Source: Limosilactobacillus reuteri (GTDB taxonomy: Bacteria; Bacillota; Bacilli; Lactobacillales; Lactobacillaceae). Taken from it: a stretch of 64,000 nt of DNA. The notes under the pieces were generated by a model that was not told where the DNA came from, did not search any database, and worked only from the letters and a program-made list of their open reading frames with translations. Positions 5,953 to 28,600 of this stretch are shown here, one piece after another. The translations under genes were made by a program, and so were the position numbers. The number at the start of each line of letters is the position of its first letter. The first letter of the stretch is position 1. Location of the stretch: contig NZ_CP139478.1 of assembly GCF_034259105.1 (NCBI RefSeq), positions 513,501 to 577,500 on the forward strand. Direction: 5' to 3'.

Positions 5953-5955
5953 CTG

Positions 5956-6984: not shown

Positions 6985-7014
6985 TTGAAGCATTATGAAA
7001 CTTTAGCCTATTAT
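6985..7014 (+). promoter_or_regulatory. Predicted arcB promoter
   Basis: TTGAAG (6985-6990), an 18-base spacer, then TATTAT (7009-7014), 35 bases before the arcB start. Confidence 0.55.
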
Positions 7015-7048
7015 AGTACTTGTATTAAGACCTTAGGAGGAAATAAAA

Positions 7049-15128: not shown

Positions 15129-15190
15129 ATTAATTTGATTTTAAGTTGACGAAAAATTAAAATTAACGTATACTTTTATTTGTACGTTAT

Positions 15191-15263
15191 TGCCCGCTGG
15201 TCAAATTGGTTAAGACGTCGCCCTCTCAAGGCGGAGTTACGGGTTCGATCCCCGTGCGGGTGA
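15191..15263 (+). tRNA. tRNA-Glu (CTC), island attachment site
   Basis: 73 bases. Acceptor TGCCCGC pairs with GCGGGTG (two G-T pairs), D stem GTC/GAC, anticodon loop CTCTCAA with anticodon CTC, T arm ACGGGTTCGATCCCCGT. CCA is not encoded. Its last 16 bases form attL of the island, so the integrated element keeps the tRNA intact. Confidence 0.9.
15248..15263 (+). repeat. attL core
   Basis: 3' end of tRNA-Glu, repeated with one mismatch at 28585-28600 beside the integrase gene. Confidence 0.88.
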
Positions 15264-15365
15264 TTTTTTTATTTTAAATTAATCTAATATAGCGTCTAAA
15301 TCATTGATAAATCAGCATTCTTGATTTTAGGTTTACACTATAAAACGTTATTTTTAATCAATTCT

Positions 15366-15385
15366 GCGGAAAAGTTGCGGAAAAA
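15366..15385 (+). repeat. GCGGAAAA direct repeats near attL (possible integrase arm sites)
   Basis: GCGGAAAA occurs at 15366-15373 and 15377-15385. The same pair in the same orientation is at 28531-28539 and 28542-28550 near attR. Short direct repeats at both ends of an island are typical of arm-type integrase sites. Confidence 0.6.
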
Positions 15386-15408
15386 TAATTCAACTTGTCA
15401 GCATGGTG

Positions 15409-15432
15409 GACTACTAATCTAGTAGTCTTTTT
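15409..15432 (+). terminator. Terminator near attL
   Basis: GACTACT...AGTAGTC stem followed by TTTTT. Confidence 0.75.
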
Positions 15433-15555
15433 ATTTTTGCTGTCAGAATTTTTTAGAATTAAACATCCCCAACAATATTTTTTGTCTAAAACGGGGATGA
15501 TTTAATTATTCTAGTTAATGTAATTGCTTATATATCAACAGCCAATTAAAATAGC

Positions 15556-15653
15556 CCCCCCTACCTAAAAAGTTTCAAAACAGCCCTCGCAAATAAAAAT
15601 ACGGAAATGTGTGCGCTCTTTTTTGTTCAAAGATAGGGGCGGGGGTGTTTCTC
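15556..15653. repeat. GC-rich inverted repeat, left copy
   Basis: Starts with a CCCCCCTACC block and ends GGGGCGGGGG then TGTTTCT, with TGTGTGCGCTC near the middle. Read on the other strand, the same order of blocks recurs at 26811-26926. The two copies enclose most of the island's genes. Confidence 0.65.
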
Positions 15654-15852
15654 TTTAGGGTGTATTAATTGTCCGGACACAAAAAGATAACTGCTAAACT
15701 AGTGGTTCCCTTAGTTATCTAATTCTTGTTGTCGCTCTTTAACACAGCCTAGTAGCACATCAAGGTTTTCTTTGGCTGCATCCTTTCATCTGCTTTGTAC
15801 GCATACTTTTTAAGGGGATACACACTAATTTTACATACAAGATAATATGCTA

Positions 15853-15932
15853 AAATACCTATGGGGCGCGAAAAGTAAAGTTGTTAATTTTTCAACAATA
15901 CCAAGAGTAGCTTGTGAGGGCTACTCTTTTTT
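15853..15932 (+). ncRNA. Candidate small RNA
   Basis: A short transcript is suggested by an AT-rich promoter-like stretch (TTTACA at 15830, TAAAAT at 15851), an inner hairpin GTTG/CAAC and a good terminator (AAGAGTAGC...GCTACTCTT, then T) ending at 15932. There is no open frame of note. Weak evidence: promoter spacing is short. Confidence 0.35.
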
Positions 15933-16066
15933 AATACCATCAATCTCAACGGGACTAAGTATTTTTTAATACTTACATTTACTAACATTCAGTATATCCA
16001 AAGTGATAATATTAGATTATTGAGTGGCACAAAATAAAAGGGCGGTCTAGTTATCTAGGTCGTCCT

Positions 16067-16246
16067 TTAGTTAGTTAACTTGGCTTTTTGCTCTTGTGCT
16101 AGTGATATTAATTTGTCTAGGTCGTCTTTATCTGCATAGTGTTTAATAAACGTTTTAGCATTTGAGCGATATTGATATAGTTTGTTTTTCTCTGGGTGTC
16201 GTTTCTTGTATCGTCTTGTAGCTCGCATTTGTGCTTGTGTAACCAT
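16067..16246 (-). CDS. Small basic phage-type protein, 59 residues
   Basis: The preferred start is ATG 16246 (VTQAQMRATRRYKKRHP), which has AAGGGG at the right distance; a longer reading from TTG 16270 would start inside or before that ribosome site. It is rich in Arg and Lys, with a predicted long helix (NAKTFIKHYADKDDLDKLISLAQEQ). Similar short proteins are common in phages and islands of Firmicutes, with no assigned role. It is the island gene nearest attL on the minus strand. Confidence 0.6.
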   Translation of the reverse strand: MVTQAQMRATRRYKKRHPEKNKLYQYRSNAKTFIKHYADKDDLDKLISLAQEQKAKLTN

Positions 16247-16534
16247 GAAAACCATCCCCTTAAATTGCAAATAGTGTAATATAGCGTCTTATAGTGTAAA
16301 GTTATAACTTGTATAGTTATATACACACGTTATAATTGTTTATGTAAAAAGGCGCTAGGCTGGGTAAGAACCTAACGCCCGACATTTTCTTGCTAGACAG
16401 GTTTACTTTAAAGCATTAGTAGTTAGTAGCTATTAATGCTTTTTTAGTAGGCTGATTGCAATAACAACTACAAATACAAACATTTTATTCATACCCTTTG
16501 AGGGGTAAATAAAATCATATGATATAATGAATGT

Positions 16535-16583
16535 GTTTTAAAATCTTTGTACAAGGGGCGCTCTCACAGCAGAGCGTCTTTTT
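16535..16583 (+). ncRNA. Candidate short terminated transcript 1
   Basis: TATAAT at 16523-16528 is followed about 28 bases later by the terminator GGCGCTCT-CACAGC-AGAGCGTC plus T5 (16556-16583), implying a transcript of about 50 bases. Confidence 0.35.
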
Positions 16584-16597
16584 GTTATAATACTGCT

Positions 16598-16646
16598 AGT
16601 TAAACTGCTCCGCTCGTTGCTGATGATAAAGACAACGGGCTTTTTT
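16598..16646 (+). ncRNA. Candidate short terminated transcript 2
   Basis: A perfect extended -10 (TGTTATAAT, 16583-16591) directly follows terminator 1, and a second terminator (GCTCGTTG...CAACGGGC plus T6) ends at 16646. It is a second promoter-terminator unit of about 50 bases upstream of the restriction-modification gene. Confidence 0.4.
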
Positions 16647-16729
16647 AGTATGTATTATAAATATATCCTTTAAATCATTATTTGCAGGCGAGATAATAAA
16701 ATCATCACTTCAGAAAGGATTTTGTATGT

Positions 16730-17047
16730 ATGGCAACTAGACAACAAAATGCTCGTGAGTTTGTTAAAACTTGGTCATCTTCTAACAAGGGACGTGAAGA
16801 TGCGGATCGGCAAACTTTTTGGAACGATTTATTACAGCGAGTATATGGAATTAATGATTATTATAACTACATTACGTATGAGAAAGACGTTCAAGTAAAA
16901 GCAGGTGGCAAGGTCACTACTAGGCGAATAGATGGCTATATTCCATCAACTAAAGTCATGATCGAAATGAAAGGTAAAAAGATTAAAGACCTTACCAAAC
17001 CACTGAAACAATCTGGGGGGGGGGAGTGGCGACCTCACGCCATTTGA
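16730..17047 (+). CDS. Type IIL restriction-modification enzyme, N-terminal nuclease part (out of frame)
   Basis: 105 residues as it stands, of which the last nine (after SGGG) are out of frame. ATG 16730 follows AGAAAGGA. The PD-(D/E)XK nuclease core is visible: D68 (RRIDGY), E79 and K81 (IEMKGK). With nine rather than ten G at 17015-17024 the frame runs on as KQSGGGSGDLTPFEQAKRY into the methyltransferase, giving one 940-residue MmeI-like protein (nuclease, helical spacer, N6-adenine methyltransferase, target recognition). In the state shown, no complete enzyme is made. A sequencing error in the G run is the alternative. Confidence 0.85.
   Translation: MATRQQNAREFVKTWSSSNKGREDADRQTFWNDLLQRVYGINDYYNYITYEKDVQVKAGGKVTTRRIDGYIPSTKVMIEMKGKKIKDLTKPLKQSGGGEWRPHAI
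17015..17024 (+). repeat. Poly-G tract (10 G), probable phase-variation switch
   Basis: Ten consecutive G inside the coding region. Nine or twelve G join the two halves of the restriction-modification gene; ten gives a stop 23 bases later. Such tracts slip during replication and switch genes on and off. Confidence 0.8.
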
Positions 17048-17138
17048 GCAAGCCAAGCGCTATGCTAATTTCTTACCCAACAGTGAGCAACCTCGTTGGA
17101 TATTAGTTTCTAATTTCAACGAGATTGATATTCATGAT

Positions 17139-19553
17139 ATGGAAAAGCCGTTGGCGACACCGACAGTAATAAAACTTAGTGATTTACCGCAAAAAGTAAA
17201 ATTACTAGAATTTATTGTTAATGCCAGTCAGCAAAAGGTAATTGACGAAAAGAAACTCTCAGTTGATGCCGGTAACCTAGTGGCAAAAATATACCATGAA
17301 TTAACTAACGCCTATGCGGAAGGACGGGGCGTTGACGTTAATAGTCCAGAAATCCAGCGAAGTTTAAACATGTTAATCGTCCGTTTGGTTTTTTTGCTTT
17401 ATGCAGATGATAGCAACCTGTTTGGTAAAGATAATATTTTTCAAGCTTTTATTGAGCGAAGAGAACCCCGTGATATACGCCGAGACCTGTCAGCTTTGTT
17501 TAAGGTGCTAGATCAACCAGAGAGTGAACGTGATCCATACCTTGACGATGAATTTAACCAATTTGCCTATGTGAATGGTGGGATGTTCTCCGATGAAAAT
17601 GTAATCATCCCCCAGTTTACTGATGAATTAAAAAGGTTGATTGTTGAAGAAGCGGGTGCAGGGTTCGATTGGTCGGGAATCAGCCCCACAATATTTGGTT
17701 CAGTATTTGAAAGTACGTTAAACCCTGAAACAAGACGCTCTGGGGGGATGCACTATACCAGTATCGAAAACATTCATAAAGTGATAGATCCATTGTTTCT
17801 AAATGATTTACATGATGAATTTGATAAAATCCAGAATATGGGAAATAACAATCAACGAGTAATTAAAGCTCGTGAATTTAGGGTAAAACTAGGTAAACTA
17901 AAATTTTTCGATCCAGCTTGTGGCTCTGGTAATTTTCTCACTGAAACTTATTTGTCATTGAGAAAGATGGAAAATGAATGTTTACGGATTATTACTGGTG
18001 ATCAAGGAACGTTAGCAATTACAGACGATAGCGATCCAAAAGTTAAAATCCAGAATTTCTACGGAATTGAAATCAATGATTTTGCTGTTTCAGTTGCCAG
18101 AACAGCAATGTGGATTGCCGAAAGTCAAATGTGGGAACAAACGAAAGATATTACATTTGCCAATAAAGACTTCTTACCGCTAGATAGCAATGACTCAATC
18201 TATGAGGGTAATGCCCTACGTATGAATTGGGAAGATATAGTGAAACCATATGAATTGGACTATATTATGGGGAATCCACCGTTTGTAGGTGCAAGAATGA
18301 AAAATAAAGGCCAAAAGCAAGACCTGCAAGAAATTGAGGTAACTTTAAAGGGCGTTGGTAATATTGATTACGTTGCAGGATGGTATTTTAAAGCAGCACA
18401 ATATATACAAGACACAACCATTCAGGTCGCATTTGTTTCTACAAACTCAATAACTCAAGGGGAACAAGTATCAATTATCTGGGAAACACTTCTACAAAAA
18501 TACAAAGTGGCTATTAATTTTGCATATAAAACTTTCGTCTGGAATAACGAGGCGAAAAATAAAGCGCATGTTCATGTAGTAATTATTGGATTTGGTCAAC
18601 GTAAGATCAAAGAGAACGTTATTTATGATAGAAATAAGATACAAAGAGCTAATAATATTAATCCGTATCTTGTTGATGCCAGTAACATTTTAATATCCAA
18701 AAGAACTACACCTTTGGATATCAATCACCCAATAATGGGCATTGGGAACAAACCAGTTGATGGTGGTAATTATCTTTTTGAAGAAGCTGAAAAGAATGAT
18801 TTTGTAAAAAACGAGCCTTCTTCAAAAGAATATTTTAAAAAATTTTGGGGAGCACGTGAATTTATTAACAGAAAACCAAGATATTGCTTGTGGTTAGGGG
18901 ATGCAAAACCAAGCCAATTAAGGAAAATGCCTTCTGTAATGAAAGTTATTGAAAGTGTTAAAGATTTTAGGCTGTCAAGTAAAAGCGCAGGAACCAGGAA
19001 ACTTGCTGATCATCCAACACGTTTTCACGTTGAAAATATGCCAAAAGGTAATTTTCTTGTTGTTCCACGAGTTAGCTCACAACGAAGAAAGTATATTCCA
19101 ATAGGATTTATGAGCAATAGTAATATAGCATCTGACGCATTATTAATAGTTCCTAACACTGACCTATATGAATTTGGCCTACTAAATTCACTAGTTCATA
19201 TGGACTGGATCAAAACTGTGTGTGGTAGATTGAAAAGTGATTACAGATATTCAGCGGGTGTTGTCTATAATAACTTTCCTTGGCCTAACGTTAATGATAA
19301 GCAAAAGAAAAAGATTTCAAAAACAGCACAAGCAATCCTTGATGCTCGAAATCTTTATCCGGATAGTTCATTAGCAGATTTGTATGACCCGTTAACAATG
19401 CCAATTGAATTGCGAAAAGCGCATGAAGCTAATGATAAAGCCGTATTGAAAGTGTACGGGTTAAAGCAATCTGCTAGTGAATCAGAAATTGTGCAACATC
19501 TTTTCAAAATGTATGAAGAATTAACAAGAAAGGACAAACGGAATCATGAATAA
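17139..19553 (+). CDS. Type IIL restriction-modification enzyme, methyltransferase and specificity part
   Basis: 804 residues from the first in-frame ATG; the open frame begins right after the G run. Visible: helical spacer (1-240), S-adenosylmethionine motif I FDPACGSGNF (257-266), catalytic NPPF (379-382) as in N6-adenine methyltransferases, a target-recognition region (about 560-720) and a C-terminal helical tail. Homology pattern: MmeI/Eco57I-like single-chain enzymes that both cut and methylate. ATG 17139 has no convincing ribosome site, so methyltransferase alone is unlikely to be made efficiently. It is the cargo gene of the island, likely defending the host (and island) against phages when switched on. 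Confidence 0.88.
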   Translation: MEKPLATPTVIKLSDLPQKVKLLEFIVNASQQKVIDEKKLSVDAGNLVAKIYHELTNAYAEGRGVDVNSPEIQRSLNMLIVRLVFLLYADDSNLFGKDNIFQAFIERREPRDIRRDLSALFKVLDQPESERDPYLDDEFNQFAYVNGGMFSDENVIIPQFTDELKRLIVEEAGAGFDWSGISPTIFGSVFESTLNPETRRSGGMHYTSIENIHKVIDPLFLNDLHDEFDKIQNMGNNNQRVIKAREFRVKLGKLKFFDPACGSGNFLTETYLSLRKMENECLRIITGDQGTLAITDDSDPKVKIQNFYGIEINDFAVSVARTAMWIAESQMWEQTKDITFANKDFLPLDSNDSIYEGNALRMNWEDIVKPYELDYIMGNPPFVGARMKNKGQKQDLQEIEVTLKGVGNIDYVAGWYFKAAQYIQDTTIQVAFVSTNSITQGEQVSIIWETLLQKYKVAINFAYKTFVWNNEAKNKAHVHVVIIGFGQRKIKENVIYDRNKIQRANNINPYLVDASNILISKRTTPLDINHPIMGIGNKPVDGGNYLFEEAEKNDFVKNEPSSKEYFKKFWGAREFINRKPRYCLWLGDAKPSQLRKMPSVMKVIESVKDFRLSSKSAGTRKLADHPTRFHVENMPKGNFLVVPRVSSQRRKYIPIGFMSNSNIASDALLIVPNTDLYEFGLLNSLVHMDWIKTVCGRLKSDYRYSAGVVYNNFPWPNVNDKQKKKISKTAQAILDARNLYPDSSLADLYDPLTMPIELRKAHEANDKAVLKVYGLKQSASESEIVQHLFKMYEELTRKDKRNHE

Positions 19554-19619
19554 AAAATAATTGTTGGAATTTATCGTGAAAAAAAGTTAATGTGCGTTCC
19601 CAAAGTATCAATAAACTAA

Positions 19620-19648
19620 CCCCCGTTGAAAGAGAACGGGGGCTTTTT
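19620..19648 (+). terminator. Restriction-modification gene terminator
   Basis: CCCCCGTT-GAAAGAG-AACGGGGG stem, then CTTTTT. Confidence 0.9.
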
Positions 19649-19805
19649 AGTATGTCCTATTTTGATAACAAAAGAGGGGCTTTTATTGCTCTTTCTTGCT
19701 TCTTGTTTTGACGTTAAATGTGATTATATCAACGATTACAGCTAATCACTCATAAGTAATAACAATTAACTACGAATTAGCTAACGAGTGTAGTTTTGTA
19801 AGTTT

Positions 19806-19904
19806 CTAGTGTCTGCGCTTAATAACCAGTAAAGCAATGATAATTACTGCGATTACTGCCAATAACTCATAAATCCAGTAGGTGCTATCAAAGAATAAAA
19901 TCAT
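19806..19904 (-). CDS. 32-residue hydrophobic peptide, possible toxin or small membrane protein
   Basis: ATG 19904 has a good ribosome site (TTGGAGTTGGTAAC). The peptide starts MILFFDSTYWIYELL, has one membrane helix (LLAVIAVIIIALLVI) and ends in a basic tail KRRH. That plan (short, one helix, positive C-terminus) is shared by type I toxins and by phage-encoded small membrane proteins. No antisense RNA is proven, although the flanking hairpin at 19667-19693 might end one. It lies in the island between cargo and replication genes. Confidence 0.5.
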   Translation of the reverse strand: MILFFDSTYWIYELLAVIAVIIIALLVIKRRH

Positions 19905-20092
19905 GTTACCAACTCCAATTTAGTTTAATTAGTGCTTTAACTACGAATCAATAAAAAAGGTTAGGTTTTGTTAACGTTCTTATAACTACAAACATCCCCA
20001 CCAATGTACAATATTGGGCAATAAAAACATATTAGCTTGCTGTTATATCAGCGTTTAAGAGGCTTTAATAAATTGGACACCCTATGGAACAT

Positions 20093-20458
20093 TTATTGTT
20101 TAACAATTCCAATGTTTTTGTATGCAGTCGTTACCTTGTTACCGTAATAACCAACATAAAAGCGGTGGTGCTTTTGATAAACAAAGCCTAACAATTCCAT
20201 GTTGTGCTTAAATTGGCGATTGCTTAGCGGTGTTAAGTCCTGCTGATAGCAATAATCTAAGTAGTGATTATAGATAGTCTTACTAGTGCTGTATAAGCGT
20301 CGATCCTTTTGGATGTTATCAGAGAATACAAAACTAACAACTGTTGGGTCTGCTTTGTCTTTATTTCTAACTCTGAAATGATAATCTTTCTTGCTGTCAG
20401 TCATCCACTGGGCTAGGGTGTGTCTACTTGTAACATATCTACCACGATACCAACTCAT
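20093..20458 (-). CDS. Probable primase/helicase C-terminal fragment
   Basis: 121 residues starting at ATG 20458. The segment KTIYNHYLDYCYQQDLTPLS, followed by NRQFKHNMELLGF, resembles the winged-helix C-terminal domain of phage and plasmid P4/D5-type primases, which reads the origin. The N-terminal primase and helicase domains are absent. Upstream a short open stretch (YPLQAKAAQTALKRKIEH) ends just before the start and may be a relic. In PICIs pri follows rep, as here. Assignment is by pattern only; a stand-alone regulator is possible. Confidence 0.45.
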   Translation of the reverse strand: MSWYRGRYVTSRHTLAQWMTDSKKDYHFRVRNKDKADPTVVSFVFSDNIQKDRRLYSTSKTIYNHYLDYCYQQDLTPLSNRQFKHNMELLGFVYQKHHRFYVGYYGNKVTTAYKNIGIVKQ

Positions 20459-21082
20459 TTAGAATCAACTCCATTTTTCTATATGCTCTATTTTTCGTTT
20501 TAAAGCCGTCTGAGCCGCTTTAGCTTGTAAAGGATAAATTGTATTTAAAACTAATTATCGCTTTTAAAACTGCCCTTAAATTAAAAATAAACACTATTCT
20601 AAATCTGATTAGTATATTTATTGCTATGATCCTACGAGTGATATTTTGGCGGTCAGATTTTAGGCTGCCAATTTTTGATAGCTGAATTTTAAGTCACCAA
20701 ATTTAGATAGTATTCTCGTGTACTGTAAGGCGTTTTAAGAAGCTTTAACTGAAAGATGATGATTTACCCTAAAAAGTAGTTAACGATAAATAGCAACGGT
20801 CACGATGTAGCTCTCTGGAAAATAAACGGGTGTTGACGCATAACCTCTCTGCTAATCCAATATCTTTCGCTTTTCCGTGCAATTGATAATGAGAAATTAC
20901 AGTTGAGCTATTGATATATCAGTATTTGGGCTAGTAAAGCATTGCACGCTTTTTGTTTCCTTTTCCTCCGAGTAAATGACAATATCCCCTCTATATCGCT
21001 GTATTAACGGCAAAGAGGGGATGTTATTTTTCGTAGGTCATACTTTTTTAAGGAGGCCGATAAGGCTAAAAATGCTTATTAA
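20459..21082. other. Gene-free region, candidate replication origin of the island
   Basis: AT-rich; between about 20640 and 20712 it holds loosely repeated blocks (GATTTTAGGCTGCC, AATTTTTGATAGC, AATTTTAAGTCACC, AATTTAGATAG). A long stem ATATCCCCTCT/AGAGGGGATGTT lies at about 20970-21020. Its place beside replication genes fits an origin, but this is inference. Confidence 0.35.
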
Positions 21083-21484
21083 TTAATGCCATTCGTTATG
21101 GTCTAGGCTGTTCACTTTATCCAATAGACTTTGAGCGTTTTCTTTCTGCTCCTGTGTTGTAGTAGGGTCATTTAGTATTGTAGTAGCTGTCACTTTTACA
21201 GCGTAACAGTCCATGAGTACTTGATTACCTTGTACCTTGAAATGTTCATCTGGAATATGAGCCACAAGAGGATTTTCAGCCTTAAAACGTTCAATTGGAT
21301 TGTTCCCAGCTACTTCTACTAAGCCCTCGTTAATTGCTCGTTGAGTGGGATTGCCTAGCTCATCAATCATCCCCTCATTAACTAGCATTTTATAGAGTTT
21401 GTCCTTGTTAGGATGCAAGCCAATAGAAAGAAAATGACTGTAGGCTTGCTCAACTAACGGCGGGTATTTGATATTAAAATTCAT
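21083..21484 (-). CDS. Hypothetical island protein, 133 residues
   Basis: A soluble protein with no family I can name. Its N-terminus (MNFNIKYPPLVEQAYSHF) and the segment LGNPTQRAINEGLV suggest a small helical DNA-associated or phage accessory protein, and the C-terminal third is acidic. ATG 21484 follows AGAAAGGACAG. It is in the minus-strand early operon, downstream of the replication gene. Confidence 0.6.
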   Translation of the reverse strand: MNFNIKYPPLVEQAYSHFLSIGLHPNKDKLYKMLVNEGMIDELGNPTQRAINEGLVEVAGNNPIERFKAENPLVAHIPDEHFKVQGNQVLMDCYAVKVTATTILNDPTTTQEQKENAQSLLDKVNSLDHNEWH

Positions 21485-21522
21485 TGTTTATCTGTCCTTT
21501 CTTTTTAAGGGTGTCCAATCTG

Positions 21523-21906
21523 TCAAAACCGCTTCAAATATTTATTGACTAATTTATCTTTTACTTCGCTTTCCTCACTATTGCTTCTTAGATAATCGCT
21601 TCTAATGGTCTTTAATTGCTTATGAAGCGAACTAGAAAGTTTCTTGGCTTTTATTAGCTTTCGATTGTATTTAATTATTAATTGCCTGTTTTGCTTGATT
21701 AGGGTAGGCGTTTGATGTTTGAAAATACCTAGACCATCAACAAAATACAAGTGGGTAAATGGTATCTTGATTAAGCTATTGTTTAATTGCTTTTCGTTGG
21801 CTTGGATTATGTTGTCTAATCGTTTAATATCACTCATCAATTTAGTATAGGTTTCATATCCAGCGCTAAAGTTAGAAAGGTTTCTCTCAAATTCTGTTAG
21901 GTTCAT
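21523..21906 (-). CDS. Hypothetical coiled-coil protein, 127 residues
   Basis: Mostly helical and basic, with heptad-like patterns over about residues 15-45 and 75-115 (LIIKYNRKLIKAKKLSSSLHK). No membrane segment or known domain. It starts 20 bases after the stop of the replisome organiser gene and is probably co-transcribed with it. Function unknown. Confidence 0.55.
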   Translation of the reverse strand: MNLTEFERNLSNFSAGYETYTKLMSDIKRLDNIIQANEKQLNNSLIKIPFTHLYFVDGLGIFKHQTPTLIKQNRQLIIKYNRKLIKAKKLSSSLHKQLKTIRSDYLRSNSEESEVKDKLVNKYLKRF

Positions 21907-21926
21907 GAATGCATCATCTCTGTGTC

Positions 21927-22919
21927 TTAATCATTACTAGAAGATTGTTCCAATGTTTGCTTGGTGTATTCGGGTAGGTGCTGTATTAATAGCTTGGCTA
22001 ATGATTGTTTATCTTGATATTGTGGCATTTGATTAGCAACGTTCATAATGTTATCAACTCCTAATTGGATGTCCTCAATTTCATAGCCGTTATGGATTAA
22101 CATATCAAAAACATCAGCGAGCCTTTTATTGTCTTTGGGGATGTCAGTAGGTGATATACCGTTTAAGTAGTTGAATAGACTGTTAATGTTATCTTGGTTG
22201 TTGTTAGTATCTAATTGATTATTAACTCTATTATCTACTCCACCTTTTTCTCCACTGTTGCCTTTATTCTCTGTAGTAGCATTATTATATATAGAGGAAG
22301 TAGAAGTGCTGTTGTCTTTATCTATATTTATCTTTTCTTTTTTTGTCTGGTCTGGTCTATTCTGTTCTAGTCTACTCTTATCTACTCTATTCTTATCTAA
22401 TCTATTCTGTGCAAGAACTTTCTTGGAAGTTTCCTCGACACTTCTTGGAACTTTCTTAGAAGTTTCTTGGAACTGCTCTAAGTATTGCTGTGCTTGGATT
22501 TCTGGAGGGGTCTTTTTATCTCGTCCTTGTTTTACCCAATAATCAACAGGGGAAATGATGTCTTTTTCATCTGGGTTAGTGGTGTAAGCAAAATTTGTTT
22601 TAATAAAAAGCAAAGCTCTAACAGAAAGATACTCAGTCGCTTTATAGATTTTGGGTTCAATTTTATTTTGGGCGTACCAATCAGTAATAACATAGACACC
22701 ATTTTTAGTTGGTTCTAGTATCAAGTTATTTTTGAGCAACTCGTCATAGTTGCTCTGGTCTGCATTAGTTAGAAAGTTAATCATTTTGACGCTACCGACA
22801 AAGCCATCATCATCAGCGTTTAGGACTAGATAGAAATACAATAATTTACTTACTGGGTGCATATCTACAAAGCGATCATCCTCAGCTATTTTTCTACTAA
22901 TCATTCTTCTTTCTGCCAT
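21927..22919 (-). CDS. Replisome organiser / DnaD-like replication protein
   Basis: 330 residues. The N-terminal winged-helix region (about 1-115; RMISRKIAEDDRFVDMHP, LNADDDGFVGS) is that of phage replisome organisers, which bind the origin and help load the helicase. A low-complexity Asn/Ser/Asp-rich linker follows (about 180-250), then a DnaD-like C-terminal segment (LADVFDMLIHNGYE). It shares a one-base overlap (TAATG) with the gene before it. In a PICI this is the rep position. Origin sites are probably nearby but not proven. Confidence 0.8.
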   Translation of the reverse strand: MAERRMISRKIAEDDRFVDMHPVSKLLYFYLVLNADDDGFVGSVKMINFLTNADQSNYDELLKNNLILEPTKNGVYVITDWYAQNKIEPKIYKATEYLSVRALLFIKTNFAYTTNPDEKDIISPVDYWVKQGRDKKTPPEIQAQQYLEQFQETSKKVPRSVEETSKKVLAQNRLDKNRVDKSRLEQNRPDQTKKEKINIDKDNSTSTSSIYNNATTENKGNSGEKGGVDNRVNNQLDTNNNQDNINSLFNYLNGISPTDIPKDNKRLADVFDMLIHNGYEIEDIQLGVDNIMNVANQMPQYQDKQSLAKLLIQHLPEYTKQTLEQSSSND

Positions 22920-23389
22920 TACTTACATACCTCCATATCCTTATAGCTTAATTGACCATCAACAAATAACTTTGTTAATCTAATGAGCCGTTTAAGTGTA
23001 TTTTCATCGTTGCTCGTTACTTGTTCGATACGATCAATAATCTTTTCACGTTCCCGCTCTTTCTTTTTGTTGTGTGATAAATAGTCATGATTGTTAATTG
23101 ACTTCATAATGAAATAAAGGCGAGTGGTGTTTTTATCATCGTTGTTCGTTAGCAAGGACAACTTAGAATATAAGTCACCATTGAAGCCATCTAAGTAAAC
23201 TAAAAAGGTGTGAACTTGCTTAATATCATCCCCAACGAACTTACTAATACGGGTGGCGAGTTCCGTTGGTTCTTTGCTGTTCTCGGTGTCTTTAAGATAT
23301 GAATACCACGATAGCAGGGCGAGGTAAGTAGTTTTCATGTCCCAACGTTCACGGTGTCCGTCTGGTGCGGTAAGAGTAACTAGTTGCAT
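22919..23389 (-). CDS. Hypothetical protein of the replication operon, 156 residues
   Basis: A soluble, mostly helical protein, highly charged in the middle (HNKKKEREREKIIDRIEQ). I recognise no domain. It is coupled by overlap to both neighbours: 11 bases with the preceding gene and 1 base with the replisome organiser, so it probably works with replication. Length and place fit a helper or loader, but that is inference. Confidence 0.6.
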   Translation of the reverse strand: MQLVTLTAPDGHRERWDMKTTYLALLSWYSYLKDTENSKEPTELATRISKFVGDDIKQVHTFLVYLDGFNGDLYSKLSLLTNNDDKNTTRLYFIMKSINNHDYLSHNKKKEREREKIIDRIEQVTSNDENTLKRLIRLTKLFVDGQLSYKDMEVCK

Positions 23390-23589
23390 TCTGTATCACT
23401 GTCCTTTTCAATAATGCTTGATGAGTCAATAATCTTTTGAAGCTGTTGAGCGGTCTTAATAAAACGGCTGTCGTCTACCACTTTTGCTTGATTAACTAAC
23501 TCACTAGTAAAATTGCCTTTAATTACTACGAGCGCCTTATTTCCCTTGTGGTCATCCGCCAAAATAAATTTATAATTATCGTTATTCAT
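23380..23589 (-). CDS. Hypothetical protein, 69 residues
   Basis: A small acidic protein, N-terminus beta-rich (YKFILADDHKGNKALVVIKG) and C-terminus helical. An excellent ribosome site (GGAGG, 9 bases before ATG 23589). Just upstream of it lies a GGGGAAACATCCCC palindrome (23611-23624). First gene of a coupled block of three leading to the replisome organiser. Unknown function. Confidence 0.6.
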   Translation of the reverse strand: MNNDNYKFILADDHKGNKALVVIKGNFTSELVNQAKVVDDSRFIKTAQQLQKIIDSSSIIEKDSDTECN

Positions 23590-23656
23590 TGTCTTATTCC
23601 TCCATTTGTTGGGGATGTTTCCCCGCTTTCATGTGTTGTTATGTTAGAATAAGCAA

Positions 23657-23743
23657 GCAACGGGGGTTATTCCCGTTGTGCTTACTGTGAAGCCTGTTAG
23701 CGCTGTTTGGTGTGGTAATTATCCAGCGTTGACGGCTTTTTTA
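23657..23743 (+). ncRNA. Candidate small RNA on the strand opposite the island operon
   Basis: Extended -10 TGTTAGAAT (23642-23650), a first hairpin CAACGGG/CCCGTTG (23658-23678) and a strong terminator (AGCCTGTTAGCGCTG...CAGCGTTGACGGCT then T7) ending at 23743. It sits in the 167-bp gap between two minus-strand genes, so it would be antisense to their leader. No coding frame. Confidence 0.5.
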
Positions 23744-23756
23744 TTTTGTCGAAACA

Positions 23757-24068
23757 TTATTCTTCACTTTCTAATTCTGCATTGCTGATTATTTCTGCTC
23801 TTTTGCTCATCATCGTTATTTGTGAGGTAAGCGGTGCTAAGGCTTGTTGGCGCTCATCATTATTGGTAATGATGTAATAGCCGTTTGGGCGGTTGTACTG
23901 CGCTCCAATTGGTACATGGTGAAGCACGATTAAGCGATAGATAATTCCACGCACTTCACGTTCTTTTAACCCCGACAGCTTAACTAATTCTTTAAGCGGT
24001 TTAGGTTGCGCAATCCCTTTAGGTAATAGCTGTAAAATCTTCTTTTCCTCTTGGTCTAGTTGTTCCAT
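23757..24068 (-). CDS. Winged-helix DNA-binding protein
   Basis: 103 residues from ATG 24068, preferred because AAAGGA is 9 bases away; an in-frame ATG at 24077 touches the ribosome site. Residues 10-75 look like a winged helix (LKELVKLSGLKEREVRGIIYRLIVLHHVPIG, read as two helices and wing), typical of small phage regulators. The C-terminus is acidic. It lies in the minus-strand early operon after the 45-residue membrane peptide gene. A regulatory role in the lysogeny or excision circuit is likely but unproven. Confidence 0.65.
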   Translation of the reverse strand: MEQLDQEEKKILQLLPKGIAQPKPLKELVKLSGLKEREVRGIIYRLIVLHHVPIGAQYNRPNGYYIITNNDERQQALAPLTSQITMMSKRAEIISNAELESEE

Positions 24069-24081
24069 TAGCTTCATTCCT

Positions 24082-24219
24082 TTACTTGATTAACTGAGCG
24101 ATTAAATTCATTGCTACAAGTACAACGGGCAAGGTAGCAAGGTAAGCCCATAGCCGTTCGCTTGGTGCTGTGTCCCAGTAGCTTAATATGTGTTTATCAA
24201 TCGTTGATAATAACTTCAT
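24082..24219 (-). CDS. 45-residue membrane peptide
   Basis: ATG 24219 has the strong ribosome site GGAGGAATTAAACATC. The peptide begins MKLLSTIDKHILSYWD and has one hydrophobic helix near the end (LWAYLATLPVVLVAMNLIA). The stop at 24082 lies directly before the next gene. The good ribosome site and tight fit between neighbours support it as a real gene. Function unknown. Confidence 0.6.
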   Translation of the reverse strand: MKLLSTIDKHILSYWDTAPSERLWAYLATLPVVLVAMNLIAQLIK

Positions 24220-24230
24220 GATGTTTAATT

Positions 24231-24256
24231 CCTCCAATATCCACGCTGGCAAGCTG
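24231..24256 (+). repeat. 26-bp segment shared with the integrase leader
   Basis: CCTCCAATAT then CCACGCTGGCAAGCTG. A near copy with one extra T and one change lies at 27391-27417, 20 bases before the integrase start. Confidence 0.65.
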
Positions 24257-24263
24257 ATATTAT

Positions 24264-24539
24264 TTATTTTTCGTGCTGGATTAAAAACTCGTCTAAGGCT
24301 TCTCGTCTGAAACGACTTACGCCATCGATCTGGATAGCGGGGATGTCGTACTTCTTAATCCATGAATTAAAGACACCCCGTGATACGCCACAATAGGCGC
24401 TAGCTTCTCCCTTGTTTAGATAAGGCGGGAAGCTGTTTTTGTTTTGCACATCTTTAATAGCTTCACTGAGTGCCTCCCCAATCATTGCTTTGGTTGCTTC
24501 TTGTAAATCATTTGGCAACTGCACTTGTAAACTTTCCAT
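24264..24539 (-). CDS. Excisionase-like helix-turn-helix protein
   Basis: 91 residues from ATG 24539, chosen because TTGGAG lies 9 bases upstream; a longer reading from 24593 would overlap the Rha gene. The C-terminal half (LNKGEASAYCGVSRGVFNSW, then VSRFRREALDEFL) is a MerR/excisionase-type winged helix of the HTH_17 kind. Such proteins direct excision by the integrase or act as activators. In PICI order, xis is in this operon, which fits. The N-terminal 40 residues are a helix that may mediate dimerisation. Confidence 0.7.
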   Translation of the reverse strand: MESLQVQLPNDLQEATKAMIGEALSEAIKDVQNKNSFPPYLNKGEASAYCGVSRGVFNSWIKKYDIPAIQIDGVSRFRREALDEFLIQHEK

Positions 24540-24556
24540 GTAATTAACTCCAATCA

Positions 24557-25177
24557 TTAAGCCAATAGCAAAACGCCTTTTACTTCGTCCCATGTCTTAT
24601 TGAGGCCAACAAGGCCAATAGCGATATTCTCTAGTTGCTTATATCGTTCTTGTTCTTTGAGCGTTAGACCATCTAACGCAACTTTGACGTGTCTTTGTTT
24701 CTTAATTTGCTGTGCTGTTAGACCGGTAGCACGCTTCAATAAAAGACGGGTCATATTGATATAAATGTAATCAGGAGCTTGTGGCCATTCTTTTATTGCA
24801 TCCGTTAATGATTTACGCTGTGGCTTTTCAATAGCTCGGTTAATCTGTCGTTGATTAAGCTCTTTTCTCATACGGTAAAACTCATGAACAAGGTTTTTCT
24901 TGAATTGATTAACCTCTGGTGTGTTATCTAGGTAGGTAATTAAGAGCGTTGCTTGTTGTTCGTTTAGGTGGTAGGTCTTTTGTGGTCGTCCCCCTTTTGA
25001 GCCTTTAAGAGGTTTAGTCATTTCAAATGACAAAACTCCAAAGTCTTCTAAGTCCTCTTTGTGGTTATAGATAATCACTTTTACAGAATGAAGATTATTA
25101 TTACTACATTCAGCAATGATTTTATCTGTGGTATATGGTTCTTCATTTAGACCGTGCATGAAAACTAAATTGTTCAT
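24557..25177 (-). CDS. Rha-family phage regulatory protein
   Basis: 206 residues. The N-terminal part (about 8-95) has the Rha pattern: TTDKIIAECSNNNLHSVKVII, then FEMTKPLKGSKGGRPQKTYHLNEQQATLLI and FKKNLVHEFYRMRKELNQR. The C-terminal half holds basic helices of unknown role. Rha proteins are phage-encoded regulators linked to host IHF-type control of growth. ATG 25177 follows AAGGGGATGG. It lies in the minus-strand early operon. Confidence 0.82.
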   Translation of the reverse strand: MNNLVFMHGLNEEPYTTDKIIAECSNNNLHSVKVIIYNHKEDLEDFGVLSFEMTKPLKGSKGGRPQKTYHLNEQQATLLITYLDNTPEVNQFKKNLVHEFYRMRKELNQRQINRAIEKPQRKSLTDAIKEWPQAPDYIYINMTRLLLKRATGLTAQQIKKQRHVKVALDGLTLKEQERYKQLENIAIGLVGLNKTWDEVKGVLLLA

Positions 25178-25248
25178 TCAATCCATCCCCTTACTTGTAC
25201 TGTGTTTTTGAGAGTTCTTTTATTGATGTGGATAATTTATCGAATTAA

Positions 25249-25587
25249 TTAGTTGATGCCTGTTTTCTTCGATCGTGAACTAGCTCTGTGAGAAATAAGG
25301 GCATTCTGTAATACTTGTTTCCGCCTTTCTTTTTGTTTTTCCGTAAGGCGTACTTTCTTGCCTAGTTCTGTATGGCTCATCATGCAAAGCTGTTTGGCCA
25401 TATCTAGTGTGACGGCGTAGTCATCAACTTGGCGAAGTGCGCCATTACCACCGTTTGGAACGGTCGTACCTCCGGGTACACTCGTAAAGTCTTCACCTTC
25501 AATAAAATCTTTGAAATTCTGATTAACCCATGCACTGAACCGTCTCTGTCTGACGGTCGTAAGAAATAATCGTTTCTCGTTCTTCAC
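25249..25587 (-). CDS. AntA-type antirepressor remnant
   Basis: 112 residues. The middle (RFSAWVNQNFKDFIEGEDF and VDDYAVTLDMAKQLCMM) is the AntA domain found at the start of phage antirepressors. The normal N-terminus is missing: the only good ribosome site (AGAGGTG, ATG 25623) opens a different frame (MTEITKQMATAPRE) that stops after 33 codons. The start at GTG 25587 is poor, and the C-terminus becomes a basic tail. The gene probably carries a frameshift or deletion. Antirepressors release lysogeny, so its loss may alter induction of the island. Confidence 0.6.
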   Translation of the reverse strand: MKNEKRLFLTTVRQRRFSAWVNQNFKDFIEGEDFTSVPGGTTVPNGGNGALRQVDDYAVTLDMAKQLCMMSHTELGKKVRLTEKQKERRKQVLQNALISHRASSRSKKTGIN

Positions 25588-25636
25588 GTGGTGCTGTTGC
25601 CATTTGCTTAGTAATTTCTGTCATTGCTTGTCACCT

Positions 25637-25876
25637 CTATTTGTCTTGTGTTGCTACTGCTTGGCTATCTTTCAAGTCTTGCGTTGCGTACTCGTCAATG
25701 AGCCAATCGCTCAACTTCTTATAAGTTGCTGGCGTTACCTTACGATGGTTACGCTTGAAGATGTTGTCTAGCGTCCATCGACTTAAACCGAGTTCACGTC
25801 CAAGCGCTACGGTGGATAAATTAAGTTCTCCACGTTTGCGTTTGATAGCTGTTACTTGTTTTTCTGATAAATACAT
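25637..25876 (-). CDS. Cro-like XRE regulator
   Basis: 79 residues with a helix-turn-helix (about 18-45; LSTVALGRELGLSRWTLDNIF). ATG 25876 follows AGAAAGGATG. It is divergent from the CI-like repressor with 149 bp between them, the position of cro/str in phages and PICIs, and is first gene of the minus-strand early operon. Expected to bind the shared operators (ATGTACGGT arms) and favour the replicating state. Confidence 0.78.
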   Translation of the reverse strand: MYLSEKQVTAIKRKRGELNLSTVALGRELGLSRWTLDNIFKRNHRKVTPATYKKLSDWLIDEYATQDLKDSQAVATQDK

Positions 25877-25899
25877 TTATTTCATCCTTTCTCTCCAAA

Positions 25900-25967
25900 A
25901 TGTACGGTTGATAGTCAAAAATAAAAGCGTCCAATTTGTTCGCTTATAATTAAAATACACCGTACAT
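25900..25967. promoter_or_regulatory. Divergent operator region of the genetic switch
   Basis: ATGTACGGT (25900-25908) and its exact inverse ACCGTACAT (25959-25967) lie 50 bases apart in the intergenic region, as expected for operator half-sites bound by the repressor pair. A -10 TATAAT (25995-26000) directs the repressor gene. Confidence 0.6.
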
Positions 25968-26025
25968 ATTGTAGTGTCAAGTGTAAAGTAGTATTATAAT
26001 TGTTGAAAACTAGGGAGGTGATTAA

Positions 26026-26631
26026 GTGGGCAATAAAGAGGTTTTGTCTAATCAAAATCGTATTAAGCAGTTGAGATTAGAACAACATAAAACTCAAAAA
26101 GAGGTTGGGGAAGCAGTAGGGCTTTCTGATAGAGCGATAGCTCACTACGAGAAAGGAATACGTGAGCCTAAATTAGAAACATGGATAAAATTAGCTGATT
26201 TCTTTGATGTGCCTGTTTCTTATATACAGGGTGTCAGCAATAACAAAAATACTTACGAATTTAAAAATGCAGTTCAACTAAAAAACGCCCTTGAAAAAGG
26301 GATGAATATTAAATCAGGAAAAAACTTAAAAATCGGCGAATTAACCATTGAAAGTATCGAAAATAAAAAAGAAGCTGATCAAAATTTTGTCAAAAATGAT
26401 TTGCCCGTTGTGTTATCTAGTGCGGATTTAAAAATGTTAGTAAGCGCCTATGCGTCCATAAAAGACAAGCCAACTTATCAAAACAGCGTTGAGGAACTTA
26501 ATACTTTTTTAGTTTGCCTTGTCCTTTTTATTACGGGTGGCATAAATGAACAGCAACTTCAACAAACATTACTAGATTTTATCAACGCTTTTAAAGCGGA
26601 TGAACAGGGTAATAAATTAGATGAAGATTAG
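26026..26631 (+). CDS. CI/Stl-like XRE repressor
   Basis: 201 residues. The N-terminal XRE helix-turn-helix (about 7-62; RIKQLRLEQHKTQKEVGEAV, then GLSDRAIAHYEKGIREP) is followed by a helical C-terminal region without the peptidase motifs of LexA-like CI, so it is probably not self-cleaved. That fits PICI master repressors, which are relieved by binding a helper-phage protein. GTG start at 26026 with GGGAGGTGATTAA. Divergent from the Cro-like gene and in line with the integrase. Confidence 0.8.
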   Translation: MGNKEVLSNQNRIKQLRLEQHKTQKEVGEAVGLSDRAIAHYEKGIREPKLETWIKLADFFDVPVSYIQGVSNNKNTYEFKNAVQLKNALEKGMNIKSGKNLKIGELTIESIENKKEADQNFVKNDLPVVLSSADLKMLVSAYASIKDKPTYQNSVEELNTFLVCLVLFITGGINEQQLQQTLLDFINAFKADEQGNKLDED

Positions 26632-26810
26632 TGTTCCTACATCCAAGTGCAATTGACATTAAAAGCTACTAGGATAGACACTATGAGAAACTTTATTATT
26701 ACTATATTCGATACCATCTCAAATATTGTTATAGAAATACTGTGTAACGTGCTTCCTTAGCTGATTAGATAGCTGAATATAGTTTATGTATCCACTAGAT
26801 TGATTTAGAA

Positions 26811-26926
26811 ACATCCCCCGCCCCCGTGAGAACCAAAATGAGCGCATCACATAGAACAATGCACTTGTTTGAAAATCCGAGTTATTTTAGGCTAACGGGT
26901 AGGGGGGATGGTGTTTCAAAGTGAGT
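26811..26926. repeat. GC-rich inverted repeat, right copy
   Basis: Starts AGAAACATCCCCCGCCCCC and ends GGGTAGGGGGGATGGTGTTTC, so it is itself an imperfect palindrome. It is also an inverted partner of 15556-15653 (shared GAGCGCA/TGCGCTC core and outer G/C blocks). Confidence 0.65.
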
Positions 26927-27373
26927 TAATCCCACTTCAAAGTTGGTCAATCAAATTGACCGAGTTCGCCCCGTTACTGGGGATGTTAAAAGCGTTAAAA
27001 ATTAAACGCAATTCATAACATCTCTAATAGTTGTTGAAGCTAATATATAGCGATTTAATGTTAGGTTTTGTAAGGTTCTATCCTGCAAAACCAATATACA
27101 CACTAATAGCGCCACTGCTATATTTCCCCAGTTTTGGGGACATCTGCTAAGAATTGAGCCTATGTTCGATTGGTCGAAAACTCGGCTGATTGCATCCGTC
27201 CAAAATTGGACACATCTTACTCACCTCAATTTTGGGGTAAGTACATCTGCGCATAATTGCGCACATCTTTACTCAGCGCAAAATTACGCTCAGCAAAATT
27301 GCGGAGTGGATATCACTCAGCCGAAAAGTCGGCTCAGTTCATCCCCCCTTTTGACAGTGCAAAATTGCGCCAC
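26919..27373. repeat. Array of about 14 short hairpins with differing stems
   Basis: Successive palindromes include AAGTG/CACTT (26919-26937), GGTCAAT/ATTGACC (26945-26961), CCCC/GGGG (26969-26982), GCGTT/AACGC (26992-27009), CCCC/GGGG (27126-27139), TTCGA/TCGAA (27165-27178), GTCC-AAAATT-GGAC (27198-27211), ACCTC/GGGGT (27223-27238), TGCGC/GCGCA (27248-27263), AGCG/CGCT (27275-27290), GAGTG/CACTC (27304-27318), AGCCGA/TCGGCT (27319-27334) and GTG/CAC (27357-27373). Loops are mostly AAAATT or AATTTT, and spacers often read CATC or CTCA. Stem sequences change while pairing is kept. Confidence 0.8.
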
Positions 27374-27390
27374 GAAAACTCAAATACATA

Positions 27391-27417
27391 CCTCCAATAT
27401 TCCATGCTGGCAAGCTG
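27391..27417 (+). repeat. 27-bp segment shared with the excisionase-side leader
   Basis: CCTCCAATATTCC then ATGCTGGCAAGCTG, matching 24231-24256 except for one extra T and one base change. It lies directly upstream of the integrase start. Confidence 0.65.
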
Positions 27418-27436
27418 TGCGAAATGAGGTAATTTT

Positions 27437-28525
27437 ATGAGTTATGCAAAGAAAGCAAAAAAGGGCTATTACGGAATAGCAGAGTTTAAGGACAAGGACG
27501 GAAAACGTCACCAAAAATCAGCAGGCTTTTTCAAGCTGAAACGTGAAGCATTACAAGCAGGGGATGAGTTAGAACGTGAATTAAACAAGGCTAACTTAGA
27601 TTTAAGAGATGTAACCTTATTTGATTACTTTAAGCGGTGGTTTGACCTATATAAGAGTAGCAAAGCTCAAAGTGCAAGCGCTCAAAACCAATACCGCATA
27701 ATGAAAAAGTTTATTAACGAGTATTTCGCTGATACGAAACTACGAGAAATTAAGCGCTCAGACTATCAAGAGTTTATTAATTGGTACGGTAGCAATCACG
27801 CTTATAAATCAGTTAGTAAGTTAAATGGTGCTATTAGGTCATGCGTTGGCTATGCAATTGATGATGATATTATCAATAAGGACTTTACGCATAATGTTAA
27901 TATCACATATAATAAAACTTTGGAGAGAAAAGTTGATTACCTAACAACTAGTGAGCTTCAAACGCTAAAAAAGAATGTAATATCTAAGCTAGAAAGGTAT
28001 AATACAAGCCGTTACATGATACTCACGGCAATTTATACTGGAATGCGTAAGAGTGAAATACAGGCGCTTACGTGGAATGATATTGACTTTCTACATTCGA
28101 CAATTAGCATTTCTAAGTCGTGGGATGAAAAAGAAAAAGCTTTTAAATCCACTAAAACAGAATCAAGCAAGCGAGTTGTGAAGGTAAATCGACAATTGCT
28201 CAAAAGATTAGAAGACTTAAAAGCTAATAATAGTATTATGGTCTTTCAAAACGTATTAGGAACAATCCCTACAAGTAACGCATTGAATAAGTGTTTACAC
28301 TCTATTATGAATGATAGTAACATCAATAAGCAAGGTTTTCACTTTCATTCGTTACGCCACGTTCATGTAGCCTTTTTGCTGAGTAAAGGCGTTGATATAT
28401 ACGCTATTAGTAAACGGCTAGGACATTCAAATATTACCGTAACCTTAAATACTTATTCTTATTTGATTGATGAGTACAAGGCTAAAAATGACACCTTAAT
28501 CATTGATAAATTGGCGGAATTATAA
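27437..28525 (+). CDS. int: Tyrosine integrase of the island
   Basis: 362 residues. The N-terminal arm-binding domain (1-55; GYYGIAEFKDKDGKRHQKSA) precedes a SAM-like core-binding domain (60-160) and the catalytic domain with R204 (TGMRKSEI), H304 and R307 (HFHSLRH), H330 (LGHSN) and Y340 (TLNTYSYL). All catalytic residues are present. ATG 27437 follows TGAGGT. It ends 60 bases before attR, as usual for elements integrating in a tRNA gene. Expected to join attP to the 3' end of tRNA-Glu and, with an excisionase, to reverse it. Confidence 0.93.
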   Translation: MSYAKKAKKGYYGIAEFKDKDGKRHQKSAGFFKLKREALQAGDELERELNKANLDLRDVTLFDYFKRWFDLYKSSKAQSASAQNQYRIMKKFINEYFADTKLREIKRSDYQEFINWYGSNHAYKSVSKLNGAIRSCVGYAIDDDIINKDFTHNVNITYNKTLERKVDYLTTSELQTLKKNVISKLERYNTSRYMILTAIYTGMRKSEIQALTWNDIDFLHSTISISKSWDEKEKAFKSTKTESSKRVVKVNRQLLKRLEDLKANNSIMVFQNVLGTIPTSNALNKCLHSIMNDSNINKQGFHFHSLRHVHVAFLLSKGVDIYAISKRLGHSNITVTLNTYSYLIDEYKAKNDTLIIDKLAEL

Positions 28526-28530
28526 GAGTT

Positions 28531-28550
28531 GCGGAAAAATGGCGGAAAAA
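28531..28550 (+). repeat. GCGGAAAAA direct repeats near attR
   Basis: Two copies, 28531-28539 and 28542-28550, in the same orientation as the pair near attL. Confidence 0.6.
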
Positions 28551-28584
28551 CAGAGTGCAGACGCTGATACATCAAGGGGTTAGT

Positions 28585-28600
28585 ATCCTCGTGCGGGTGA
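28585..28600 (+). repeat. attR core
   Basis: ATCCTCGTGCGGGTGA, one mismatch from the 3' end of tRNA-Glu. Confidence 0.88.

Follow-up and report, generated by a model that had tools for sequence, protein, structure and literature searches.

A hairpin array before the integrase of a Limosilactobacillus reuteri phage satellite is very probably a bank of antirepressor-gene words

What purpose could be served by a run of short hairpins, placed almost end to end between the repressor and the integrase gene of a mobile island? The question was raised by a stretch of 64,000 nucleotides from Limosilactobacillus reuteri (NZ_CP139478.1 of assembly GCF_034259105.1, positions 513,501 to 577,500), here called the window, to which all coordinates refer unless another record is named. 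In the initial annotation about 14 palindromes were described at 26919..27373, and an RNA or single-stranded DNA scaffold, an origin of replication or packaging, or multiple protein sites were suggested. The analysis presented here points to a different answer. The array very probably collects, as a bank, the type-specific hairpin words of antirepressor (rha) genes, phage genes by which dormant viruses are switched on.

The island carrying the array is PICI-like and was found to be inserted in a tRNA-Glu gene (15190-15264). Its features relevant to the array are the following.

15249..28600, no strand: phage satellite (PICI-like island) in tRNA-Glu, 13.4 kb, from blastn against NZ_CP104439.1
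22321..22474, minus strand: iteron-like repeats inside the helicase-loader gene (21927-22919), a DnaD-like loader by PHROG
24557..25177, minus strand: the island's own Rha-family gene (Pfam PF09669, E 2.6e-15)
25249..25587, minus strand: AntA-type antirepressor-like gene (Pfam PF08346, E 9.4e-15)
26026..26631, plus strand: HTH repressor gene (Pfam HTH_3, E 9.2e-17; PHROG repressor families)
26812..26910, plus strand: cos-like stretch bounded by CATCCCCC and GGGGGGATG, directly left of the array region
27126..27370, plus strand: core hairpin array, the probable bank of antirepressor words, from hairpin count, unit reading and covariation
27437..28525, plus strand: tyrosine integrase (Pfam PF00589, E 2.2e-24)

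The same element exists as a circular 10.4-kb L. reuteri record (NZ_CP104439.1, locus L013). By blastn, positions 6999-7192 of the circle correspond to window 15249-15441 and positions 5530-7013 to window 27116-28600. The two ends overlap in a 15-bp att sequence (15249-15263 and 28586-28600) at the end of tRNA-Glu. An integrase with att repeats at a tRNA gene, a divergent repressor, early regulators and a replication module were all present, as expected of a PICI. The repressor is encoded on the plus strand, and the Rha, AntA, HTH and DnaD-like loader genes on the minus strand. No head or tail proteins were found among the 12 island proteins scanned, and the other small open reading frames were read by eye. 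The iteron-like repeats are the presumed replication origin. Their location in the loader gene, and not in the array, makes the suggested role of the array as a replication origin an unfavoured one.

Window 26815-26888 was 95% identical to G048:C106:2931-3003 of a prophage-like contig (L141). There the interval is flanked by an HNH gene (2373-2873) and by a TerS gene (3106-3645), and the contig also carries TerL-, portal- and capsid-like genes. In such phages the HNH-TerS interval holds cos. Because of this match, 26812-26910 was taken for a putative cos-like stretch of a helper; a blastn search of it against phages gave no match. The stretch is common to the window island, the prophage-like contig and a satellite-like element of L. 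ingluviei (L142, G018:C61 3714-3786), and its placement differs among them.

As cargo the satellite carries a type IIG (MmeI-like) restriction-methylase gene (16730-17047 and 17139-19553). An 804-aa part of it matches PADLOC REase_MTase_IIG, and a separate upstream ORF of 105 aa resembles its start by eye. Directly before the integrase start, a GCTGGCAAGCTGTGCGA-like motif (27406-27422) was kept in L013, L014, L016, L030 and L033 despite differing upstream regions. The window also contains a transposase-like, putatively IS30-like gene at 33016-33984.

Fourteen non-overlapping hairpins (Watson-Crick stem of at least 4, loop of 4-7) were counted in the 520 bp before the integrase, whereas 60 dinucleotide shuffles averaged 6.5. 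The summed hairpin score was 85 against 34.3 +/- 9.1 in shuffles (z 5.6), and the excess of palindromes first reported was thereby confirmed by shuffling. Across 34 integrase-upstream regions z ranged from -1.0 to 5.6. Five Lentilactobacillus-type regions without the array (L022, L024, L025, L039 and L047) reached z 3.3-4.2, and hairpin number by itself is therefore not distinctive. The distinctive marks of the array are its uniform loop, its register and its covariation, not the raw hairpin count.

The uniform array was confined to 27126-27370. The left part of the stretch first described (26919-27115) is of another make, containing other inverted repeats (CCCC/GGGG, GGTCAAT/ATTGACC, GCGTT/AACGC) without the AAAATT-type series. 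In the core array a unit consists of 4-5 paired bases around the loop. Most loops read AAAATT or AATTTT or differ from these by a single change, and the spacers are ACATC(T) and CTCA, in agreement with the loops and the CATC and CTCA spacers read initially. The units are as follows, all on the plus strand.

27126..27139, plus strand: H1, CCCC-AGTTTT-GGGG
27146..27159, plus strand: H2, GCTA-AGAATT-GAGC, imperfect
27168..27191, plus strand: H3, a long stem with GTCG-AAAACT-CGGC; LVENSAD in one frame
27197..27212, plus strand: H4, GTCC-AAAATT-GGAC; weak blast matches, the annotated ones being Rha or antirepressor genes
27218..27243, plus strand: H5, CCTC-AATTTT-GGGG inside a longer interrupted stem
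27248..27263, plus strand: H6, TGCGC-ATAATT-GCGCA; blast matches in antirepressor genes
27275..27290, plus strand: H7, AGCGC-AAAATT-ACGCT, encoding SAQNYAQ, which occurs in 1 of 122 Rha proteins among the matches listed
27291..27304, plus strand: H8, CAGC-AAAATT-GCGG, imperfect, encoding QQNCG, near QQNCR of three Rha proteins among the matches listed
27304..27318, plus strand: GAGTG / CACTC inverted repeat
27320..27333, plus strand: H10, GCCG-AAAAGT-CGGC; one change in 20 nt compared to a rha word
27357..27370, plus strand: H12, GTGC-AAAATT-GCGC, imperfect; two changes in 20 nt compared to a rha word

Folding of the whole intergenic stretch as RNA gave z -5.6 for the plus strand and -12.3 for the minus strand (20 shuffles per strand), values that do not single out one strand. 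At gathering and permissive Rfam thresholds the array had no match; up to E 5, just two chance-level matches to other families were obtained in 26500-27600. The whole intergenic stretch matched no phage record and one plasmid record by blastn. No near-identical direct repeats or regular spacing emerged from a repeat search, which agrees with the earlier view that this is not a CRISPR array. A protein gene was considered, one plus-strand frame being open through several words in the window, but this frame is stopped in L033 and L015. CodY-like half sites were considered and dropped. The repressor operators were rejected as the source of the words, no unit being seen in the operator region (25870-26030).

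A 132-bp core could be aligned without gaps over seven distinct loci (the window, L013, L033 of L. caviae, the remnant L003, L015, L017 and L068). On the plus strand 94.2% of the cells pair, compared to 87.7% in shuffles, and 8 pairs changed on both sides, which occurred in 0 of 500 shuffles. The claim that both arms change together was thus upheld. The minus strand gave 88.8% pairing and 7 pairs changed on both sides (11/500 shuffles). Further pair types, one of the five measures, were not above shuffles on either strand (362/500 and 367/500). By hand count, the columns were invariant in 24/30 loop, 27/38 spacer and end, and 36/64 stem positions. In L003 the GTCC and GCGC units flanking the central hairpin are swapped relative to the window. 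That structure and not sequence is selected, as had been proposed, is correct in so far as pairing is kept while stems change. The stems are nevertheless drawn from a limited vocabulary (CCCC, GCGC, GCTG, GCTC, GCGG, GTCC, GCCG, CCTC and others), which is met again in other genera and within antirepressor genes.

A covariance model of the core detected it in 3 of 50 genomes in the genus and in 16 of 397 family genomes (8 of the 40 genera) when an E-value of 0.01 per genome was applied. About 4 such matches are expected by chance, and the weakest contexts (L119-L123) are uncertain for this reason. In L014 and L030 (~4640-4990), and also in L010, the repressor-integrase slot is occupied by another non-coding stretch, with many inverted repeats (CAGTACCC...GGGTACTG and others); the structured region of L030 had no blastn match in phages. 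In some relatives (L032, L034 and L035, by eye) the slot is filled by other accessory genes, presumably lipoprotein-like ones. This use of the slot fits a trans-acting accessory role for the array.

Arrays were found in several other settings in the Lactobacillaceae. Eight capsid-type records (L126-L131, L167 and L171) have the array between HNH and TerS, and these elements have their own TerL, portal or capsid genes, L131 being truncated inside TerL. A gene-by-gene listing of L128 revealed no tail genes by eye, so this element resembles a capsid-forming satellite. The array lies between capsid and connector in L163 and L164, near the integrase in L132 and L133 (in L132 also near a repressor-like gene), next to ArpU-like activators in L136, L137 and L139, and between a TerS-like and an Arc-like gene in L135. 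The recurrence predicted for related islands was therefore observed, both as the 132-bp core in seven loci and as related arrays in Lactobacillaceae satellites. Array direction relative to neighbouring genes varies: in the window it is that of int, whereas in L163 and L164 the array runs against the capsid genes. In L136 (8600-9040) and L139 (8700-9080) the arrays stand by one or two ArpU-like genes (phrog_248) in small integrase-bearing islands. Groups of GGTACC palindromes were seen both beside the integrase and in the capsid-connector interval in L049 (2660-2790), L100 (upstream of the integrase), L163 (1000-1115) and L164 (12390-12470), which are capsid-type satellites of Limosilactobacillus type.

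Over 18 arrays 133 units were read, 91 with A-type and 42 with T-type loop orientation. A single non-Watson-Crick pair was present in 49 units, namely 21 GT, 17 AC and 11 other; there is therefore no sign of the G-U tolerance that RNA helices would favour. Among 33 viral stretches with TGCGCATAATTGCGC, dense arrays were present in just three, from contigs 2937142334_000005 and 2937174130_000006. As a control, 59 unclustered CAAAATTG cores also showed raised flank pairing (31, 38 and 29 of the 59 cores at positions one to three), and some of these cores are probably lone array members. Outside marked arrays, 31 perfect units were found in 442,485 bases, several of them within further arrays. 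In Lactobacillus phage Lb (L176, 1501-1750) an array lies directly upstream of ant, between an HTH gene and the antirepressor, a position that suggests a cis role as well.

A link between the words and antirepressor genes appeared when single units were searched by blastn against 50,697 phage records. H6 (39 nt) gave five records, four of which (three phages: LBR48, JNU_P2 and JNU_P4) match in antirepressor genes at E 2e-5 over 29/30 nt; the fifth is unannotated (E 0.6). H4 matched nine records at E 4e-3 to 0.6, five annotated as Rha or antirepressor (Enterococcus, Latilactobacillus and three Vibrio), the other four being two Listeria records without annotation and two of the phage Lb array. 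The CCCC unit gave four records, two from L. helveticus phages in an antirepressor or regulatory gene and two from phage Lb, where the array is just upstream of ant. A 171-bp array query gave 20 records, of which the six from Klebsiella phages (E 6, other genes) were taken as chance. A 22-base word occurred in 8 viral stretches, and four of them (L169, L170, L172 and L173) have it just once, within a Rha-like reading frame. Translated, the hairpin word of phage JNU_P2 gives DVRNFAQM and that of CR191 HLPNFGEM.

Six of seven GC-rich rha words were among the 12 GC-rich array words (P 2e-5), and the ten window units were closer to rha words than random stems were (0/2000). GC-rich arms by themselves restrict the vocabulary. 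Among 103 perfect units from 21 arrays, 61 had an arm from the strict inside-rha list and 89 from the wider rha-locus list. In comparison, the 25 perfect units lying elsewhere in 15 loci included 11 with an arm from the wider list, 5 of these being GCTG. Against the bank reading counts the absence of 6 of the 12 GC-rich array words from the strict rha list.

A palindrome was found to be a regular part of the rha gene. From 71 candidate loci 40 distinct genes were retained, after removal of duplicates and of loci without the DGF pattern or with too little upstream sequence, and a stem of at least 4 with a 6-nt A/T loop was sought 8-36 codons before the DGF motif. The palindrome was present in 30 of the 40 genes and missing in 10, compared to a mean of 3.3 and a maximum of 9 in 200 synonymous shuffles; many of the genes are related and mostly from Lactobacillaceae, so the counts are not independent. 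One 30-nt bin held 29 palindromes over the 40 genes, and each of 19 other bins held 0 to 5. The site is about 120 nt into rha, at about codon 40. In 48 rha loci of 2.6-3.7 kb, some overlapping, a perfect unit occurred in 31, a second unit in one, and none in 17. No second perfect unit was seen in CR191 (12 kb) or JNU_P2 (27 kb), so that no antisense partner was seen in these stretches.

The words are read in different frames in rha (VPNFGE, VRNFAQ, VQNWTD, AENSA, SPKLGN), so it is the DNA word that is kept and not one peptide. Protein comparison was carried out with 122 Rha proteins, consisting of the query, that of JNU_P2 and 120 of 7,561 found. Among these listed matches the motif site reads SNFGH, PNFGE, SNFGQ, RNFAQ, LNFEQ or PNFEE, and in a second class AQNCT, AQNCA, AENSA or QQNCR; many of these peptides are translations of array words in one or other orientation. 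Among the same listed matches, 771 protein pairs had an identity of 85% or more outside the motif, and in 167 of them the motif itself was different. P0008 and P0015, compared as proteins, are 91.7% identical elsewhere and have PNFGE and RNFAQ; at the DNA level this difference would be a change of both arms.

Taken together, these results make it very likely that the array stores words of rha genes. A unit would be a 14-16-bp palindrome with a 6-nt A/T loop, which most sampled Lactobacillaceae phage Rha-family genes appear to carry once as an exchangeable type tag, and the satellite would hold many such tags side by side in an accessory slot. The likeliest use of the array is against, or in answer to, the antirepressors of helper and rival phages. 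It might act by antisense pairing with rha mRNAs, a mechanism to which we give somewhat less than even confidence. The bank would then be transcribed, and its hairpins would pair, first by their loops and then by their arms, with the corresponding hairpin of the mRNA, so that the rha of a helper or rival phage would be silenced. The outcome would be a multivalent, type-specific immunity against antirepressors, akin to that of c4 (P1/P7) and sar (P22) RNA, both of which have a single ant gene as their target. Antisense pairing is favoured because it alone explains the many words, for which only complementarity is needed, and the hairpins on both sides. Against it count the position of the rha target well inside the gene and not at the ribosome-binding site as for c4, the absence of any excess of promoter-like sites around the array (10 found, 10.6 expected from shuffles), the mixed loop orientation, and the island's own rha, in which the hairpin word was not found, 24000-27115 being without a perfect unit.

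Three observations favour DNA sites bound by protein over antisense: G-U pairs are not enriched, the orientation is mixed, and no clear promoter is apparent. The words could be double-stranded sites for a dimeric regulator, most simply the Rha/Ant protein of matching type, an explanation that we regard as the main rival, though rather unlikely. It would account for the palindromic symmetry, for words in both orientations with no excess of G-T over A-C, for the gap-free register of 132 bp over 7 loci, and for arrays placed directly before int (window type), between HNH and TerS (8 capsid-type records) or, in phage Lb, just upstream of ant. In that case the rha copy would be autoregulatory, and the array either a decoy titrating many antirepressor types or a sensor switching on int or packaging genes upon arrival of a helper antirepressor. 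One protein family would, however, need many matched specificities. The motif also varies between Rha proteins sharing more than 90% identity over the remaining sequence, a finding that speaks against this remaining part as the recognising element. A role as part of a packaging or cos apparatus, also proposed initially, is very improbable. The array does lie beside the cos-like stretch in the window and between HNH and TerS in eight capsid-type records, but the contig sharing the cos-like stretch (L141) has no array cluster by the detector, and other arrays occupy the capsid-connector slot (L163, L164), adjoin ArpU-like genes (L136, L137, L139) or lie between a TerS-like and an Arc-like gene (L135).

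Exchange of words between array and gene offers a further explanation, in which the array is a cassette store and words are copied between it and rha by template switching or gene conversion, altering the variable segment of the antirepressor. The whole-unit exchange between L003 and the window, the motif differences between near-identical Rha proteins and the joint change of both arms would all follow. This store is nonetheless improbable: the flanks common to the units are just about 5 nt (ACATC), the word frame differs among Rha subfamilies, and no donor-recipient pair was traced. Similarly improbable is that mutation alone keeps the palindromes, through template-switch correction of quasipalindromes, the arrays being functionless, spreading selfish repeats. 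Two-arm changes could then be single events; modules are present in several kinds of intergenic slot, and GT and AC mismatches are nearly equal in number. Loops (24/30) and spacers and ends (27/38) are, however, more invariant than stems (36/64), the rha palindrome occupies one 30-nt bin across 40 genes and is rare elsewhere, and the arms are just 4-5 bp.

The proposed bank resembles several known systems. PMC12197685 describes c4 RNA of P1 and P7 as acting through short complementary stretches, likely in loops, in control of an antirepressor gene, which underlies heteroimmunity, and it gives antisense control of antirepressors as known for c4, sar and 24B_1. The array units are likewise complementary to antirepressor genes by their blast matches. 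The c4 system, however, consists of one RNA and one ant gene, paired near the ribosome-binding site, whereas the satellite has many tandem words and the rha word is at about codon 40; unlike c4, the array has no Rfam match. The sar RNA of P22 is not known to form an array. It is similar in its antisense control of an antirepressor, which for the array is proposed; it is made by the same phage as its target, whereas the array sits in a satellite. PMC3121763 deals with trans-acting antirepressors by which prophage induction is coordinated.

With a CRISPR array the bank shares a tandem set of short phage-gene matches on a mobile element. It differs in having no constant repeat, its repeats being short, mostly imperfect and irregularly spaced, in self-complementary units, and in annotated single-unit matches that fall in one kind of gene. 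In CsrB/RsmZ-type sponge RNAs, too, numerous hairpins combine an unchanging loop with variable stems; the stems of the array, however, belong to a common vocabulary, and its words are also found inside protein genes. The island resembles cos-type and capsid-forming PICIs in its integrase, divergent repressor and small size, and in the cos-like stretch or, in relatives, an own HNH-TerS-TerL-capsid set. In the literature searched, with few paywalled papers or bioRxiv preprints within scope, no description of hairpin banks of antirepressor words in PICIs or of a palindrome in rha was found, consistent with the initial statement that no described element matches.

Variable hairpin arrays of satellites, the palindrome in the rha coding sequence and the motif difference between near-identical proteins are here newly linked, a link absent from the literature found. 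If it is correct, the odd variable segment of Rha would be explained by a constraint on nucleic acid and not on protein. It is conceivable, though we hold this only tentatively and below even odds, that antirepressor genes carry an exchangeable palindromic identity tag in their coding sequence and that satellites bank such tags for word-based immunity or sensing, a Cas-free memory that would resemble CRISPR and be based on hairpin-to-hairpin recognition. If the words are a code for mutual recognition of antirepressors, the cross-talk between prophages, satellites and helpers would be readable from sequence and could be tested by simple reporters. The findings suggest that mobile elements have a new means of recognising, blocking or sensing the viruses with which they compete.
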